Assembly (NCBI GenBank): GCA_937891825.1
Contig: CALAHN010000081.1
Location: 70,700-119,717, forward strand
Length of the DNA: 49,018 bases
Origin: an uncultured Alphaproteobacteria bacterium
Lineage (GTDB): Bacteria; Pseudomonadota; Alphaproteobacteria; Bin95
Reading direction: 5' to 3'
Shown here piece by piece: positions 41,884 through 48,936 of the stretch. The translations under genes were made by a program, and so were the position numbers. The notes under the pieces are model-generated. The model worked only from the letters and a program-made list of their open reading frames with translations, was not told the DNA's origin and did not search any database. Every line of letters begins with the position of its first letter. Position 1 is the first letter of the stretch.

Positions 41884-41919
41884 AGAGCACGACGCGCTCA
41901 TTTGAGCGCGTCGTGCTCT
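41884..41919 (-). terminator. Perfect 17-bp inverted repeat spanning the kinase stop codon
   Basis: AGAGCACGACGCGCTCA is repeated exactly in inverse at 41903-41919, with only two bases between. The right arm (minus-strand 5' side) is the last codons of the histidine kinase gene; the stop codon (41898-41900) sits at the tip. In the minus direction the hairpin is followed by a modestly T-rich run (CTATCTTATT), so it probably ends the kinase transcript and may stop convergent transcripts too. Confidence 0.7.
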
Positions 41920-43962
41920 AGGGCTGTGATGACGGCTTGCCTAAACGACCGGACGTCGATCGGCTTGACGATCGTCGCCTGTACCCTTGGCAGGGCGTCG
42001 GCGATGCTGTCGTTCAGCGAAGGGCCTGACGCCAGCACGATGATAGGGATGTTGCGGGTTTCCGTGCCCGCCCGCAGGCGGTTCGCGATTTCGATGCTGG
42101 GCGCGCCTAGGCTGTCGAGATCGAAAACGATCAAATCGGGCGGGCTGACCGTGGCCAACTCCAGGCCAAGCAGGGCGGAAGGCGCAATTTGCATCGTCAA
42201 GTTCGGGATGTTGGAAATCAGATCCTGGATCGTTGCGCCGTTGCTCGGATTCTCGTCGATATAGAGCAAGGCGCGCGCCGGCCCGGCGACGCTCGGGACC
42301 GCCGACGGATCGTTCGAGTTGGCCGTCACCGCCGCCGCTGGTCGGATTGGGGCTGTCGTTGCCTCGCCGCGCGGCAGCTCGATCCAGAACGTCGAGCCGA
42401 CGCCGGCCTCGCTCATGAAGCCGATCTGGCCGTCCATTGCCGAAATCAGCCGCTTGCACAGGGAGAGCCCGATGCCGACGCCCTCGATCGCCGTCGCTTC
42501 CAGGCCAAGGCGGTTGAACGGTTGGAACACCTGGCCGTGTCGGTCCGCCGGAATGCCCTGGCCGGTATCGGCGACCTCAATGCGGATGCCGTCCCCGGCG
42601 ACGCTGGCGGAGATCGTCGCCCGCCCGCCTGTCCGGTTGTACTTGATGGCGTTTGACGCGAGGTTCAGCAGAACCTGACGGAGGCGCTGGGGATCGGCGA
42701 ACACGGCGCCGACGTCTGCGTCCGTCTCTACGCCAAGGCGCACGTCCTTGGCGTCGGCGATCGGCGACATTGTCCGGTGCACATCATCCAGCATGGCCGC
42801 CACGTCGACGGGCTTCGGCGTCAGTTTCAGGCGGCCGGATTCGATTGTCGCCAGATCGAGCACTTCGCTGACCAACTCGAGCAGGTGCTGCCCGCTCCCG
42901 ACGATCAAGCTGGCATATTCGCGCTGTTCCGCGCTCAGGCGCCTGCTTTTGTCCAGTTGCAGCATTTGCCCAAAGCCCATGATCGCATTGAGCGGCGTGC
43001 GGAACTCGTGGCTCATGCTGGCGAGGAATTCGGATTTCGCCTGATTGGCCGTATCGGCCGCCAGGCGGGCATTCCGTTCCGACGCCGCCAGTACCCGGGA
43101 TTGCGCTTCGCTCAATTCCTGGGCTTCCCTGGCCAGCATCCACGCGGTCACGTCCCTGCCGACGCCGCGATATCCAGTGAAAGCGCCGTCCTCGGCAAAG
43201 ACCGGCACGCCGCTGATCGATATCCAGATGGCGCGTTCTCCGGGGCAACCGGCGCTGGAACGTGAAATCCCGGAACGGTTCATGGCGATCGAGCGTCGCC
43301 ATGTGGGCTTGCCAGTATTCGGGGGAATTCTGATTGGCGGTGTTGACGTCCCGGCGCTTGCCGAGCGCCGAGTCGGGATGCAGACCGGTTACGCGCTCAA
43401 AATTATGGGACAGATAGGCGATGCGATGCGCTTCATCGCTTTCCCAGAACCAGTCCGCGGCGGCGGTCGCAAAGTCCAGAAAGCGCTGTTCGCTGGCCTG
43501 CAGCGCTTCCTCGGCGCGGACGCGATCGGTGATATCGATGCCATAGGTCACCCTGCCGCCGGTCGCGGTCCGGCGTTCATGCAGCAGGTGGCGCCGGTCG
43601 TTCGGCAAACGCACCTCGAACGGCTCGGTCGCGGTCTCTCGAAGGGCCAGGCGGTCGGCGATCCAGGCTTCCGGGTCGCCTTCGGCTTCCGGCAGCAGTC
43701 CGAGGGCGGCGCGGCGGCGAATAAAGTCGGTGAAGCTCAGGCCAGGCCGGCAAAGTTCGGGCGCCTGGGCATTGTCCGCCTTGAAACGGGCATTGAACGC
43801 GAGCAGACGATCATTGCGGTCCCAGAGCGAAAAATTTCCCGAAATCTCCTCGATGCCGGCCCGAAGCTCTTTGTAAAGCCGGAGGCGACGCCAAACGTGA
43901 ATGCCCGCCCAAACGGCAAGCAGGCCTGCGATCACGGCGGCAATCCACGCGGTGCCAGTCAT
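41898..43962 (-). pseudogene. Hybrid PAS sensor histidine kinase, broken by a one-base frameshift
   Basis: Two overlapping frames together make one kinase. The first (43962 to about 43243) encodes a membrane helix (residues about 5-22) and two PAS-like regions (SGNFSLWDRNDRLLAFNARF; FLDFATAAADWFWESDEAHR). The second (from about 43243 to 41898) continues PAS 2 (ERAIWISISGVPVFAEDGAF), then HisKA with SMSHEFRTPLNAI, HATPase (NLASNAIKYN, DTGQGIPAD, GIGLSLCKRL) and a C-terminal receiver domain (IVFDLDSLG, IVKPID). Homology passes from one to the other at a G4 run (43242-43245; CCCC on the coding strand). Deleting one C gives LPGERAIW and a continuous 687-residue protein. It may be a real mutation or a sequencing slip. 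Confidence 0.82.
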
Positions 43963-44287: not shown

Positions 44288-45100
44288 CTACGCGCCGTCG
44301 GCCGCCGCATACCCGGCGATGACGCCAGCTTCGATCCAGGTGCGAAGATAGCCCGCCATCAGCGTCGCTGCGTCAATGGCGTCGGCGAACTCGAGCAATG
44401 CTTCGCAAAGGTCGGCGAAGCAGCCGCCGCTCGCCGCCAGATCGAGCGCCGCCGCCTCTGGCGGCTCCAGGCTGCGGAAGCGGGCCTTGTCCGCCATCCG
44501 CCAGATCAGCCAGCGCTGCGGCAGCGGTCCGTCCGCCTCCGCCTTCGCCGCTGCGGCTGCCGCCAATGCCGGATCGTCCGAAGCATCGAGCGCCAACCAG
44601 GCCTCCGGGCCGCCATGCCGCGTTTCCAGGCGCCTGAGGTCTTCGACGAAGGCGAAGGTCAGTCGCGGCCAGTCCTCTGGGTGCAGGGCGGCCATGGCTT
44701 CCAGCCCGACGCGGGGTTGATCCTCGGCGACGAAAACCTCGCCCATCGCCCATTCCAGCCGCGCCAGCTCGGCGAGCCATGGCCGGTCCGACCAGGGGGC
44801 GACGGCTTCGATGAACGCCGGCAGATGGCGGCCGAAGAAGCGGGCGTTGGGGTGACGGGATGGATAGGCTTCGACATAAGCCGCCGCCAGCGTGAGGAAT
44901 CCATCCGCGCCCAGCGCCTGCCGCAGCTTCTCATAGTCGCCTTCCAGCACCTCGGCGAGGCGGGCGCCGTAGGCGTGCTCGTAAACATGCAGCAAGGTCG
45001 CGCGGGGCGCTCTGGCGCTATCCCGAATGTGCGGCAGGATCGCGGGATCGCCCTTGAGGATGCGGGCGGCGAAGGCGCGCTGCAAGGCGGCGAGCCGCAT
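44288..45100 (-). CDS. bufC: BufC-type DUF2063 partner protein (bufferin operon 2)
   Basis: A 270-residue protein of the DUF2063/HvfC family, which accompanies DUF692 (MNIO) enzymes and binds the precursor peptide so it can be modified. The N-terminal DUF2063 helical region (LAALQRAFAARILKGDP, LLHVYEHAYGARLAEVLEGD, YEKLRQALGADGFLTLAAAY) covers about the first 90 residues, with YPSRHPNARFFGRHLPAF next. Its ATG overlaps the end of the bufB gene by one base (45100), so the two are translationally coupled. Third gene of bufA2-bufB-bufC. Confidence 0.87.
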   Translation of the reverse strand: MRLAALQRAFAARILKGDPAILPHIRDSARAPRATLLHVYEHAYGARLAEVLEGDYEKLRQALGADGFLTLAAAYVEAYPSRHPNARFFGRHLPAFIEAVAPWSDRPWLAELARLEWAMGEVFVAEDQPRVGLEAMAALHPEDWPRLTFAFVEDLRRLETRHGGPEAWLALDASDDPALAAAAAAKAEADGPLPQRWLIWRMADKARFRSLEPPEAAALDLAASGGCFADLCEALLEFADAIDAATLMAGYLRTWIEAGVIAGYAAADGA

Positions 45101-45981
45101 CAGGCGCCTGCGGCCGCTGCGAGGGCGCGCGCCTGTTCAAGCTCCGCTTCAAGCTCGGCGAGCGGCGGGATCCGGGCGTCCCGTTCGATCATCGTCGAAA
45201 CCGGGCCGAGCAGGCGCACGGTCGCGCCGTAAAGCTCCCAGACCGCGTCGACCACCGTCGCATCGTGGGTGTCGATGATGTGGGTCGTATTGTGTTCATG
45301 CCCGGCCAGATGGATCTGGATGACCCGCTCCGCCGGCAGCGCCCGGATGAAGTCCATCGGCTCGAAGCCATGATTGAAGCCGGACACAAAGACATTGTTG
45401 ACGTCAAGCACGAGATTGCAGTCGGCCCGGCGCGCCAGTTCCGCGAGGAAGGTCCATTCGCTCATCTCGGAACTGGCGAACGTGACATAGGTGGAGGCGT
45501 TCTCCAGCGCGATCCGCTGGCCAAGCGCGTCCTGAACCTGGCCGACGCGCTGGACGACATGGTCGAGCGCTTCCTCTGTGAACGGCACCGGCAGGAGATC
45601 GTGGAGATTGACGCCATCCACGCCGGTCCAGCAAAGGTGATCTGAAATCCAGGCCGGATCGACCCTGTCCGCCAGGGCCTTCAGCCCGCGAAGATAGTCC
45701 GCATCCAGGGGATCGATGCCGGCGATGGATAGCGAGACGCCATGCATGACGAGCGGATACCGGTCGCGGACGCGCATCAGATTGGCGAGCGGCCGCCCGC
45801 CGGCCGCCATGTAATTCTCGGAGATGATTTCGAACCAGTCGATGCGCGGCTCGGGCAAGTCCGACGGCCGGTCCAGGATTTCGCCATAGTGCTGCGGGCG
45901 GAGGCCAAGCCCGAAACCCAGATAGGGCCGCTCTCCGGCGGGCGTGTCCGCCCTGGCTGGCGTGCGCATGGGAAGGGCCAT
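45100..45981 (-). CDS. bufB: MNIO (DUF692) peptide-modifying enzyme BufB (bufferin operon 2)
   Basis: A 293-residue TIM barrel of the multinuclear non-heme iron oxidative enzyme family. Conserved segments with metal ligands are WFEIISENYM, YPLVMHGVSLSIAG, WISDHLCWTG, RIALENASTYVTF, LVLDVNNVFVSGFNHGF and VIQIHLAGHE. In bufferin systems the enzyme oxidises cysteines of the BufA precursor, reported to form thiooxazole groups. It lies 139 nt after its precursor gene; that gap contains hairpin copy C, which may lower enzyme expression relative to peptide. Confidence 0.93.
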   Translation of the reverse strand: MALPMRTPARADTPAGERPYLGFGLGLRPQHYGEILDRPSDLPEPRIDWFEIISENYMAAGGRPLANLMRVRDRYPLVMHGVSLSIAGIDPLDADYLRGLKALADRVDPAWISDHLCWTGVDGVNLHDLLPVPFTEEALDHVVQRVGQVQDALGQRIALENASTYVTFASSEMSEWTFLAELARRADCNLVLDVNNVFVSGFNHGFEPMDFIRALPAERVIQIHLAGHEHNTTHIIDTHDATVVDAVWELYGATVRLLGPVSTMIERDARIPPLAELEAELEQARALAAAAGA

Positions 45982-46064
45982 CGAATTACTGCCTCAAACA
46001 ACAACGCGACCGGGAACCCTGGGGCGCCCGGCCGCGTCGCTCGCTTTCAATCGACTGGATCGAA

Positions 46065-46094
46065 CCAGACTTGAGCGGAAACGCCCAAGTCTGG
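46065..46094. repeat. GAAA-loop hairpin repeat, copy C
   Basis: A 30-nt inverted repeat: outer arm CCAGACTTG/CAAGTCTGG with one mismatch inside, inner arm GCG/CGC, loop GAAA. GATCGAA and GATCAAA flank it. It lies between the bufA2 and bufB genes of one operon, 27 nt after the precursor stop, so it could protect or attenuate the transcript. Confidence 0.8.
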
Positions 46095-46120
46095 AAATCC
46101 GATCAAATGACAGCGTGGGA

Positions 46121-46375
46121 TCAGGTGACCTTGCCGCCAGCTTTCGTGCAAGCTTCAGCGGAAGCGGCTTTCGTCCAGCCCTGGCCCTTGCAGGCGTTCT
46201 GACCGGCGCAGGAGCTCGACGCGGTCTTGCAGGCGCTCGTGCCCTTGCAGGAATTCGCGCCGGAGCACTTGACGCCCTCGCCGGCGAATGCAGGGGCGGT
46301 GGCGACCGTGCCGGCGGCGAACATTGCGGCGGCGGCGGCGGCGACCATCAGTCCAGTCGTTTTCGAAGCTTTCAT
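46121..46375 (-). CDS. bufA2: BufA2-type bufferin precursor peptide (six Cys)
   Basis: An 84-residue exported peptide. Residues 1-31 are a signal peptide (GLMVAAAAAAMFAAGTVATA, cleavage after AFA). The mature part has six cysteines, Cys37, 43, 49, 56, 62 and 76. The first five occur every six or seven residues in near-repeated units (CSGANS, CKGTSA, CKTASSS, CAGQNA, CKGQGW). This matches bufferin-2 precursors, periplasmic copper-buffering RiPPs made by MNIO enzymes. It heads the operon with bufB and bufC. Metal specificity here is inferred from the family. Confidence 0.88.
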   Translation of the reverse strand: MKASKTTGLMVAAAAAAMFAAGTVATAPAFAGEGVKCSGANSCKGTSACKTASSSCAGQNACKGQGWTKAASAEACTKAGGKVT

Positions 46376-46483
46376 GGCGTTACTCCCTTATTCGGTTTCA
46401 GATCTACTTAGCGACAACTCTTCGCCGCTCAAGTACCTCTATCTACGCCCAAGCGGGACAATCGTATCATAAACGAATATCAC

Positions 46484-46498
46484 ATCTCTGTGAGAGAT
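46484..46498 (-). terminator. Small hairpin after the doxX gene
   Basis: ATCTCT/AGAGAT with a 3-nt loop lies 2 nt beyond the doxX stop. On the minus strand it is followed by moderately AT-rich DNA (GTGATATTCGTTTATGATAC) that may also contain the bufA2 promoter. Weak evidence for a terminator. Confidence 0.3.
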
Positions 46499-46500
46499 TC

Positions 46501-46974
46501 TCAGCGCCCGCCGATACGGCGCTGGATCAACGCATCGAGCGCGATGCGTCCCGGTCCGCGCGCCACGATCAGCAGCAATACCCCGGCCCACAGCAGGTGA
46601 ATGTCCCAAAGCGCGGGATAGACCCAGAACTGAATGACCGCGGTCATGCAGAGAAGCGCCAGCGCCGCAATGCGCCCGCCAAGCCCGACGATCAGCAGGG
46701 CGGGGAAGATGTGCTCCGCATAGGTCGCGAGATATGCCGCGATCTCGTGCGGGATCAGCGGCAGCGCGTATTCGTATTCGAACAGCACGAAGGTCTGATC
46801 CGCGAGCGTCAGCCCCTCGCTGGTTTTGGTCATGCCGGACTTCAGGAACACCATCGCGATGCCGATGCGCACCGCCAGCAGGATTATGTCCATGGGAATC
46901 CGGTTGGCCCAATTGAGCGCCCGGTCCCAAATCCCAAGCACGCCCTCCCGTGGTATGACGCCTGTCTCGTACAT
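46501..46974 (-). CDS. DoxX-family membrane protein (bufferin operon 1)
   Basis: A 157-residue protein with four membrane helices (MDIILLAVRIGIAMVFLKSG, YAEHIFPALLIVGLGGRIAA, LALLCMTAVIQFWVYP, HLLWAGVLLLIVARG). It is the fourth gene of the DUF2282-DUF692-DUF2063-DoxX operon, the usual order of bufferin-1 (gig) operons, where its role is undefined; electron transfer or membrane tethering is possible. ATG 46974 was chosen because GGAGG lies directly upstream. It starts 39 nt after the bufC stop. Confidence 0.88.
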   Translation of the reverse strand: MYETGVIPREGVLGIWDRALNWANRIPMDIILLAVRIGIAMVFLKSGMTKTSEGLTLADQTFVLFEYEYALPLIPHEIAAYLATYAEHIFPALLIVGLGGRIAALALLCMTAVIQFWVYPALWDIHLLWAGVLLLIVARGPGRIALDALIQRRIGGR

Positions 46975-47013
46975 TTTGCCCTCCTCGCGTCCATGACGCC
47001 TGTTTCTTGTCAA

Positions 47014-47796
47014 TCATTCAGCGAACAGCCCGAGCCGCAGGCCGAGGCCAAGGCCCTGGCTCCAGTCCGCGTCTCCCTCATCCGCGGCGGCGGCAGCGAC
47101 GTCGCCGAGCGGCAGGGACGCCGCCAGCCGGGTCAATGTCCGGAAGGTCGGCGCATCCATGGCTTCCAACAGCACGTCGAACCCAGGCCGCCAGAGCGCC
47201 AGGCAGGCCGCCTGCCCGGACAGCAGGTTTGGGCCGACGTCGCCTGCCTGCACGCCCTGCCAGAGCCGGTGGACCGGGAAGGGCGCCCGGAGGAGGCGAA
47301 GCGTCGGATGCGGCGTGAGCCTGACATTCGGCAGGTCGCCTTCCGGAACGGCCGCCATGCGGCCAGGCGTGAGCGCGGCCGCCGCAGGCGCGTGCAAGCT
47401 TTCGTGCATCGCCCATTCCAGGCGCGCGACATCGATCGCATAGGCATGCTCCGCCATGCCCGGCCCATCGGCGAGGGCGCGCGCGAGGCCCGCGCCATAT
47501 TCGAACAGGCACGGACTGACGGGGGGATGGGCCCGGGCATAACGGAGCGCCAGGCTGTCGAAATACGCAGCGCCCACCAAGGCGCGCGTCGCCCCGTAAA
47601 TCCCAGCGAGCGCGTCCGTCAGCGTGACGGCATAGTGATTGCGGTGGATATTGAGGCGGCTGGCGGCTGGAATGCCATCGGCCCGGATCGCGGCGACGAG
47701 GGGCGTCGGGGGATGCGGCGGCGCGCCATCGACGCCGGCATGGGCCAGGGCGTTCGTGCGGAAATCCGCCTGCAGGGCGATCAGGTCAAGCGGCAT
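47014..47796 (-). CDS. bufC: BufC-type DUF2063 partner protein (bufferin operon 1)
   Basis: A 260-residue DUF2063/HvfC-family protein: LIALQADFRTNALAHAG at the N terminus, then RLNIHRNHYAVTLTDALAGI and YGATRALVGAAYFDSLALRY, matching the helical pattern of the operon-2 copy. Sequence identity between the two copies appears low, so the operons are old paralogues or separate acquisitions. ATG 47796 overlaps the end of bufB by 11 nt. Confidence 0.86.
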   Translation of the reverse strand: MPLDLIALQADFRTNALAHAGVDGAPPHPPTPLVAAIRADGIPAASRLNIHRNHYAVTLTDALAGIYGATRALVGAAYFDSLALRYARAHPPVSPCLFEYGAGLARALADGPGMAEHAYAIDVARLEWAMHESLHAPAAAALTPGRMAAVPEGDLPNVRLTPHPTLRLLRAPFPVHRLWQGVQAGDVGPNLLSGQAACLALWRPGFDVLLEAMDAPTFRTLTRLAASLPLGDVAAAAADEGDADWSQGLGLGLRLGLFAE

Positions 47797-48652
47797 CGAC
47801 CGCCCTCGCGCCGTCGAGGATGCCTTGGGCCGTCGCGGCTTCCCGCGCCAGCACGGCGAATTCGGGGATGCGGGCATCCCATTCGATCAGCGCCGGGACG
47901 CGCCCGAAGCGATCGATCGCGTGGCGGAACAGCCGCCAGACCGCCGCGTCGACCGCCGACCCGTGATCGTCGATCCGAATTTCGCCGCCGCCGTCGAGCG
48001 GCTTCACCGCGTGGCCGGCCAGATGGATCTCGCCGACGCTCCCGACCGGGGTCTCATCGATGTAGCGGAAGGGGTCGAAGCCGTGATTGCGGGCGTTGAC
48101 ATAGACATTGTTGACGTCAAGCAAGGCCTTGGCGCCGCTGCGGCGGCAGGCTTCGGCCAGGAACGCCTGTTCGGACATATCCGACGCCGCATAGGTCAGG
48201 TAGGCGCTGGCGTTCTCCACCAGGATCGGGCGACCGAAGGCGGTTTGCGCCCGGTCGATATTGCGGACGACGACGGCAAGCGCCGCTTCGGTGTAGGGCA
48301 GCGGCAGCAGGTCGTTCAGATATGCGCCCGCCGACCCGGCAAAGGCCAGATGTTCGGAGATCAGGCCAGGCTCGATGCGCCGCGCCAGGCCGGCCAGGCG
48401 TTCGAGATGGTTGGGGTCGAGCCCGTCCGCCGCGCCAAGCGACAGGCCGACGCCGTGCATGGCGAGCGGATAGTCGGCGCGAATACGCTCCAGATACAGA
48501 AACGGCGCGCCATAGCCCAGATAGTTCTCGGGATGGAATTCGAACCAGGAGACGGCGGGGCGCGTCGCCAGCACATGCGCGAAATGCGGCGCCCGCAGGC
48601 CGATCCCGGCCGCGGCCGGGATCGCTCCTGGCGCCGTGGGCGCGTCCGGCAT
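47786..48652 (-). CDS. bufB: MNIO (DUF692) peptide-modifying enzyme BufB (bufferin operon 1)
   Basis: A 288-residue MNIO-family TIM barrel with the same landmarks as the second copy: WFEFHPENYLGYG, YPLAMHGVGLSLGAADG, LISEHLAFAG, PILVENASAYLTY, LLDVNNVYVNARNHGFDP and VGEIHLAGHA. It should modify the DUF2282 precursor encoded directly upstream, whose stop is 26 nt before this start. ATG 48652 was chosen by homology (IGLRAPHFAHVL begins soon after); the frame runs on upstream over the precursor gene without meaning. Confidence 0.93.
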   Translation of the reverse strand: MPDAPTAPGAIPAAAGIGLRAPHFAHVLATRPAVSWFEFHPENYLGYGAPFLYLERIRADYPLAMHGVGLSLGAADGLDPNHLERLAGLARRIEPGLISEHLAFAGSAGAYLNDLLPLPYTEAALAVVVRNIDRAQTAFGRPILVENASAYLTYAASDMSEQAFLAEACRRSGAKALLDVNNVYVNARNHGFDPFRYIDETPVGSVGEIHLAGHAVKPLDGGGEIRIDDHGSAVDAAVWRLFRHAIDRFGRVPALIEWDARIPEFAVLAREAATAQGILDGARAVDAA

Positions 48653-48678
48653 GCCGCGCCCCGCCTCCTGGCCCAGGA

Positions 48679-48936
48679 TCAGCCCGCCGCTTTGGCGCCG
48701 CCGACCAGGCGGTCGCAAAGACCGCCCGGAATCAGCACCCAAGCATCCTTCTGTCCGTCGACGGTCGACGTGCCGGCGCAGGACGAGGTCGCGGTCTGGC
48801 AGTCGTTGGCGCCGGCCTTGGCCACGCCGTAGCATTTTTCCATCTTGGCGTCGGCGGCGATCGCGCCGCCGCCCATGGCGAGGGACGATCCGACGGCGGC
48901 CGCGACGGCGGCGGCGATCAATTGCGGCTTGTTCAT
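48679..48936 (-). CDS. bufA1: BufA1-type bufferin precursor peptide (DUF2282, four Cys)
   Basis: An 85-residue exported peptide of the DUF2282 family. The signal peptide covers about residues 1-28 (LIAAAVAAAVGSSLAMGGGA). The mature part has exactly four cysteines: Cys35 (MEKCYGVAKAG), Cys46 (ANDCQTATS), Cys53 (SSCAGTSTVDGQKDAW) and Cys74 (LIPGGLCDRLVGG), the bufferin-1 pattern. The central two are the ones modified in studied relatives. AAGGAG precedes the ATG at 48936. First gene of operon 1. Its promoter is probably near the window edge; no ECF sigma factor gene is visible before the sequence ends. Confidence 0.92.
   Translation of the reverse strand: MNKPQLIAAAVAAAVGSSLAMGGGAIAADAKMEKCYGVAKAGANDCQTATSSCAGTSTVDGQKDAWVLIPGGLCDRLVGGAKAAG

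Follow-up and report, generated by a model that had tools for sequence, protein, structure and literature searches.

Tandem Buf1 and Buf2 bufferin operons with a shared putative operator in an alphaproteobacterial genome

Bufferins (captophorins) are Cys-rich precursor peptides that are exported by the Sec route and matured by an MNIO enzyme (BufB) acting with a partner protein (BufC). Buf1 peptides are modified at their central Cys, and the outer ones are joined in a disulphide; Buf1 and Buf2 are suggested to be similar in function and chemistry, and the MNIO enzymes have been reported to cluster according to their precursors (PMC12452194). Sigma-F of Caulobacter crescentus acts through the sequence GTAACC-N16-CGAA to control two MNIO operons, that of Buf1 and CC2905-CC2907 (PMC3511200). 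Regulation by sigma-F and its inhibitor NrsF is a feature of some Buf1 clusters, ie it is optional and does not define them. Both families, their role with copper and their co-occurrence in one cell have been published already. Here we describe a 49,018-nucleotide stretch of DNA (the window; contig CALAHN010000081.1, positions 70,700 to 119,717) from an uncultured alphaproteobacterium, in which a Buf1 and a Buf2 operon stand in tandem. What is new is a palindrome, TCAC-N6-GTGA, between them; as a predicted operator it is the most useful by-product of the analysis.

Gene content, lineages and conservation of the tandem

Seven genes run head to tail on the minus strand from 48936 to 44288. The Buf1 operon opens with bufA1 (48679-48936), which has a start codon and ribosome-binding site and encodes an 85-residue precursor matching DUF2282 (PF10048) with 79.3 bits against a cut-off of 22.4. 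It is followed by bufB1 (47786-48652), encoding an MNIO bufferin maturase of 288 residues (NF050167, 347.6 bits, cut-off 310; PF05114), by bufC1 (47014-47796), encoding a DUF2063/PME-type-1 partner of 260 residues (PF09836, 66 bits), and by the fourth gene, doxX (46501-46974), encoding a DoxX-family membrane protein of 157 residues (PF07681, 56 bits). A gap of 125 bp separates doxX from the Buf2 operon. This comprises bufA2 (46121-46375), whose 84-residue precursor scores 81.3 bits against the BufA2 equivalog model NF050166 (cut-off 60), bufB2 (45100-45981), for a maturase of 293 residues (NF050167, 371.3 bits, cut-off 310), and bufC2 (44288-45100), for a partner of 270 residues (PF09836, 63 bits), the start of which overlaps the bufB2 stop. 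All seven open reading frames have plausible starts and most have ribosome-binding sites. The whole genome, 99.97% complete, holds exactly two BufB genes, one DUF2282 gene and one BufA2 gene above the cut-off. The doxX gene belongs to the Buf1 set: it is present in 19 of 21 Buf1-only loci, and the one Buf2-only locus that carries it is a broken tandem contig (L017).

The original prediction of two complete bufferin operons of different classes on one strand, with this gene content and at these coordinates, was borne out by the curated profiles, which both precursors pass. The two were correctly distinguished by their Cys, there being four in mature BufA1 and six in BufA2. The operons had been called back to back, which is right as to their adjacency on one strand; strictly, they form a head-to-tail tandem. 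The further suggestion, a layered buffering system for periplasmic copper or another metal, is conjecture; published work suggests instead that the two classes are alike in function and chemistry (PMC12452194).

Both precursors have a Sec signal peptide. That of BufA1, read by eye, is a hydrophobic N-terminal stretch ending AIA-AD, and the six Cys of BufA2 were read from its translation. When the two families were compared as profiles with hhalign, C1, C2, C3 and C4 of Buf1 aligned with C1, C3, C4 and C6 of Buf2. Among 102 Buf2 precursors Lys follows C2, C3, C4 and C5 in 99, 85, 89 and 98% of cases, respectively, and rarely or never follows C1 or C6. By homology to Buf1, a Buf2 peptide would be expected to carry four modified Cys (C2-C5) and a single Cys1-Cys6 disulphide.

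In a tree of 46 BufB sequences all 21 Buf2-linked enzymes fall in one clade (support 100/100), which includes BufB2 of the window; BufB1 lies outside it and groups with Buf1 enzymes from its relatives (99/92). A quick tree of BufC splits by precursor class in the same way and places BufC2 of the window in the Buf2-linked clade. BufB1 and BufB2 are 44% identical, and the motif blocks ENY, HGV, S[DE]H, EN, D.NN, H.AG and E[RW]D are intact in both. The partners, BufC1 and BufC2, are just 29% identical over 127 residues. Their AlphaFold models, with a confidence score (predicted local distance difference test) of 93 for BufC2 and a less certain 79 for BufC1, where confidence is modest, gave as their only strong matches NGO1945 (3dee) and TglI (8hci_A), both of which are structures of MNIO partners. 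The division of BufB and BufC by class suggests cognate pairs, and would be compatible with cross-modification too. As to the enzymes, it confirms the published clustering and is not a discovery.

The family to which the window genome belongs was sampled by only 14 genomes. Within the same genus, one genome (G013, locus L015) has the same seven genes intact and in the same order, and another (G012, L016) has the tandem over the part covered by its 3.5-kb contig. In a different genus of the family (G009) the genes are divided between two contigs (L017 and L018), one with bufC1-doxX-bufA2-bufB2-bufC2 and the other with bufA1 and the first part of bufB1, apparently the result of an assembly break inside bufB1 in a genome that has the tandem. 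Because the arrangement recurs in these separately assembled relatives, an assembly artefact is unlikely and the tandem is not private to a single strain.

A survey of genomes for the same arrangement, suggested along with the original prediction, was carried out and showed that the pairing recurs in varied orders. In a sample of the class (385 genomes, 20 with Buf2 above the cut-off and 134 with Buf1), 17 of the 20 Buf2 genomes also had Buf1, compared with 117 of the remaining 365 (Fisher P = 3e-6). Four of the 17 co-occurring genomes, representing three families, have the two classes no more than about 5 kb apart, where random placement would give about 0.08. The four are the window genome and G013, both with the tandem, G287 with a convergent pair (L025), and G084 with a mosaic (L029). 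In L029 (1228-5757, minus strand) the order is bufB1-bufC1-bufA2-bufB2-bufC2-bufA1-doxX, with the Buf1 genes in permuted order on either side of the Buf2 set. In a sample of the phylum Buf1 was found in 12 of 23 further Buf2 genomes, and in four genomes of one family Buf1 and Buf2 are divergent and within about 2 kb. Finally, 80 Buf2 loci were taken from the contigs of GTDB, each with at most 7 kb on either side, and Buf1-type genes were flagged near eight of them. These include two divergent pairs (L077 and L098) and one tandem, L089, whose order is reversed; the pairing is incomplete or uncertain in L115, L121 and L139. The samples are not independent by descent. Linkage of Buf1 and Buf2 is uncommon yet recurrent, and its order varies (tandem, reversed, convergent, divergent and mosaic). 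The original prediction had also held that few loci have been studied; this is true of biochemical work, but in silico the families are well surveyed.

The flanking genes of the window with Pfam matches are unrelated (ATP synthase subunits, a histidine kinase and others), and none of them is a copper-efflux gene. The next gene of note, some 325 bp past bufC2, encodes a PAS/HisKA/HATPase sensor kinase and is broken into two overlapping minus-strand frames at 41898-43962 (N-terminal part 42784-43962, C-terminal part 41898-43283); the break is a frameshift, arising either by mutation or from an assembly error.

The palindrome TCAC-N6-GTGA

The sole copy of the palindrome in the window, TCACAGAGATGTGA on the minus strand, occupies 46480-46493 in the doxX-bufA2 gap, 104 bp before bufA2, and is a candidate operator. 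It is overlapped by a promoter-like site on the minus strand (CTCACA-17-TATGAT, 46466-46494), for which the indication is weak, the consensus scan having returned 1 match against 0.1 expected. The palindrome is kept in L015 and L017 while the remainder of the gap has diverged. The bufA1 promoter in the window's family has it too: L018 carries an exact copy, and L015 has a copy with a single mismatch at the aligned position. Of the slightly stricter form TCACR-N4-YGTGA there are only three copies in the 4.3-Mb window genome.

Upstream zones were defined as the 60-400 bp before the first Cys codon of a bufA gene, and make up 2.8% of the sequence. In 1.66 Mb of bufferin loci there are 33 matches to TCAC-N6-GTGA, and 21 of these fall in upstream zones. 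Of 3340 dyads it is by a wide margin the most enriched (nominal P of 4e-25, compared with 3e-8 for the runner-up). Strong enrichment is found upstream of both bufA1 and bufA2 and across families. Among held-out loci, 6 of 36 bufA1 genes were preceded by the palindrome, compared with 0.14 expected over the set from shuffling. The mosaic locus L029 contains three palindromes, and each likely transcription start there is preceded by one.

Neither NrsF, for which the Caulobacter vibrioides control was matched, nor a sigma-F-type GTAAC promoter was found in the window's family, the former having been sought in six of its genomes. The palindrome and a sigma-F-like site occur at 22 and 30 bufA genes of the discovery set, respectively, and never at the same gene; a single bufA2 promoter of the held-out set has the palindrome together with a sigma-F-like pattern. 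A text search of the literature did not find the palindrome, which does not show that it is unpublished. On balance we lean to the view that TCAC-N6-GTGA is the operator of an undescribed regulator serving both bufferin classes in lineages that lack sigma-F/NrsF. Paired operons would then form one co-induced unit, and the palindrome would mark a second class of regulation, one that for the most part excludes that by sigma-F.

In the divergent pairs L077 (4627-4939) and L098 (around 6495) one palindrome stands at or between the two precursor genes. The divergent Buf1/Buf2 pairs L180-L183, from four genomes of one family (G711, G617, G591 and G597), have sigma-F-like GTAAC-N-CGA sites before both precursor genes, and these are a second route to co-regulating a linked pair. 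In G009 a palindrome (L220, position 3049) lies about 110 bp upstream of an open reading frame which by eye resembles a catalase-peroxidase, and may hint at a link with oxidative stress. Another in the same genome (L222, position 2951) is upstream of a small exported frame resembling a cytochrome c'-type protein, beside a cytochrome b561-like frame, both again identified by eye.

Proposed function and alternatives

We consider, with a probability of roughly 0.8, that these are two bona fide tandem bufferin operons which produce two periplasmic copper-binding ribosomally synthesised and post-translationally modified peptides, each with its own maturases, and that they are co-induced through a shared putative operator. 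Ahead of its export, for which it has a Sec signal peptide, each precursor would be oxidised in the cytoplasm by the BufB-BufC pair of its own operon, selected Cys being converted to 5-thiooxazoles. The predicted targets in BufA1 are the two central Cys, with a Cys1-Cys4 disulphide. In BufA2 they are the four inner Cys, enclosed by the Cys1-Cys6 disulphide, and this peptide would have about twice the ligand groups. Once mature, the peptides would chelate excess periplasmic copper; both thiooxazole formation and copper binding are expected from what was found in relatives (PMC12452194, PMC13097082). Each operon is probably a transcription unit of its own, and a single DNA-binding regulator that would recognise TCAC-N6-GTGA probably activates both together.

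Some of the observations weigh against this proposal. The evidence on this organism is from sequence, and function is assigned by homology. BufA2 of the window has Lys after only three of its four inner Cys, with Ala after C4, a variant shared by 6 of the 102 Buf2 precursors. BufB2 has Ala at a site given as Asp in Buf2 enzymes (PMC13097082); since about half of the aligned BufB2s also carry Ala, this appears to be ordinary variation. A connection between the two, ie loss of the Lys with loss of the Asp, was rejected because many BufB2s with Ala have fully Cys-Lys precursors. The exact palindrome precedes only about a sixth of all the bufA genes examined and just 1 of the 20 bufA2 genes in the held-out loci. 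Further copies in G000, G013 and G009 are near unrelated genes or inside genes, and an all-against-all comparison of neighbours at palindrome-bearing loci revealed no conserved regulator gene. The bufA1 promoter of the window is itself cut by the end of the contig, with just 82 bp available upstream of the gene, and its operator is presumed from that of relatives. Transcription could also continue from doxX across the 125-bp gap.

This last point leads to the possibility that all seven genes form one transcript and that the palindrome is incidental, as their common strand, the shortness of the gap and an order conserved in the family would allow. We regard this as possible but doubtful, given that the gap holds a promoter-like site as well as the palindrome, and that the palindrome persists in L015 and L017 despite divergence around it. 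It is rather unlikely that the maturases are not precursor-specific, with either BufBC pair modifying both peptides and the second operon serving mainly for dosage. The precursors are homologous and the BufBs share their motif blocks at 44% identity; moreover, the Buf1 and Buf2 enzymes are regarded in published work as probably isofunctional, and there are tandem precursors served by a single MNIO (PMC12452194). However, enzymes and partners divide by precursor class, the two BufCs of the window have diverged to 29% identity, and the genome retains a full set for each precursor. FonBC, furthermore, left substrates with a charged residue after Cys unprocessed (PMC13097082), and that is the Buf2 motif.

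The target could instead be another metal, or thiol or oxidative stress, with DoxX as part of the response. In Caulobacter the targets of sigma-F respond to cadmium as well as chromate (PMC3511200), operons induced by gold have been reported, as have MerC fusions (PMC12452194), and one palindrome in G009 precedes the catalase-peroxidase-like gene identified by eye. We think this unlikely, as the bufferins and captophorins so far characterised bind copper (PMC12452194, PMC13097082) and neither the window operons nor L015 were seen to have a gene for mercury, gold or arsenic next to them. Local duplication of one operon to give the other, which their common A-B-C gene order might suggest, is ruled out by the BufB and BufC trees: the two BufBs are in different supported clades, each closest to its own class in other genomes, and the same is true of the BufCs.

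Having exactly two precursors and a maturase set for each, the naturally linked pair offers a clean system in which to study the precursor specificity of BufBC, and it also suits the question of why both bufferin classes are retained by many bacteria. The survey quantifies the pairing of Buf1 with Buf2, and the shared palindrome gives a handle on bufferin regulation outside the sigma-F lineages, which the papers cited leave unexplained.

Comparison with described systems

In methanobactin biosynthesis, MbnB is a distant MNIO homologue of the window BufBs. These score only 29.6 and 61.4 bits with TIGR04159, far under its cut-off of 325, their partner is a DUF2063 protein and not MbnC, and their precursors have Sec signal peptides. 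The captophorins, oxazolin and fontiphorin (PMC13097082) have in common with the window an MNIO with a PME-type-1 partner, a Sec-exported Cys-rich precursor and the expected 5-thiooxazole; their precursors, however, have EGKCG repeats, whereas those of the window are of the DUF2282 and Cys-Lys types.

The Buf2 operon of the window resembles the described Buf2 operons (Buf_6/12Cys, Cys-Lys; PMC12452194, PMC13097082) in its six-Cys precursor, BufB2-clade enzyme and DUF2063 partner, and in lacking a doxX of its own. It differs in having Ala in place of Lys after C4 and Ala at the reported Asp site of the enzyme, and in its position directly behind a Buf1 operon. The Caulobacter Buf1 operon, CC3254-CC3257 (DUF2282, DUF692, DUF2063 and DoxX; PMC3511200, PMC12452194), has the same content and order as 48936-46501 of the window, and the precursor class and the BufB and BufC families are common to the two. 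Unlike it, the genomes of the window's family gave no NrsF match or sigma-F-type GTAAC promoter, and the Buf1 operon of the window is linked to Buf2.

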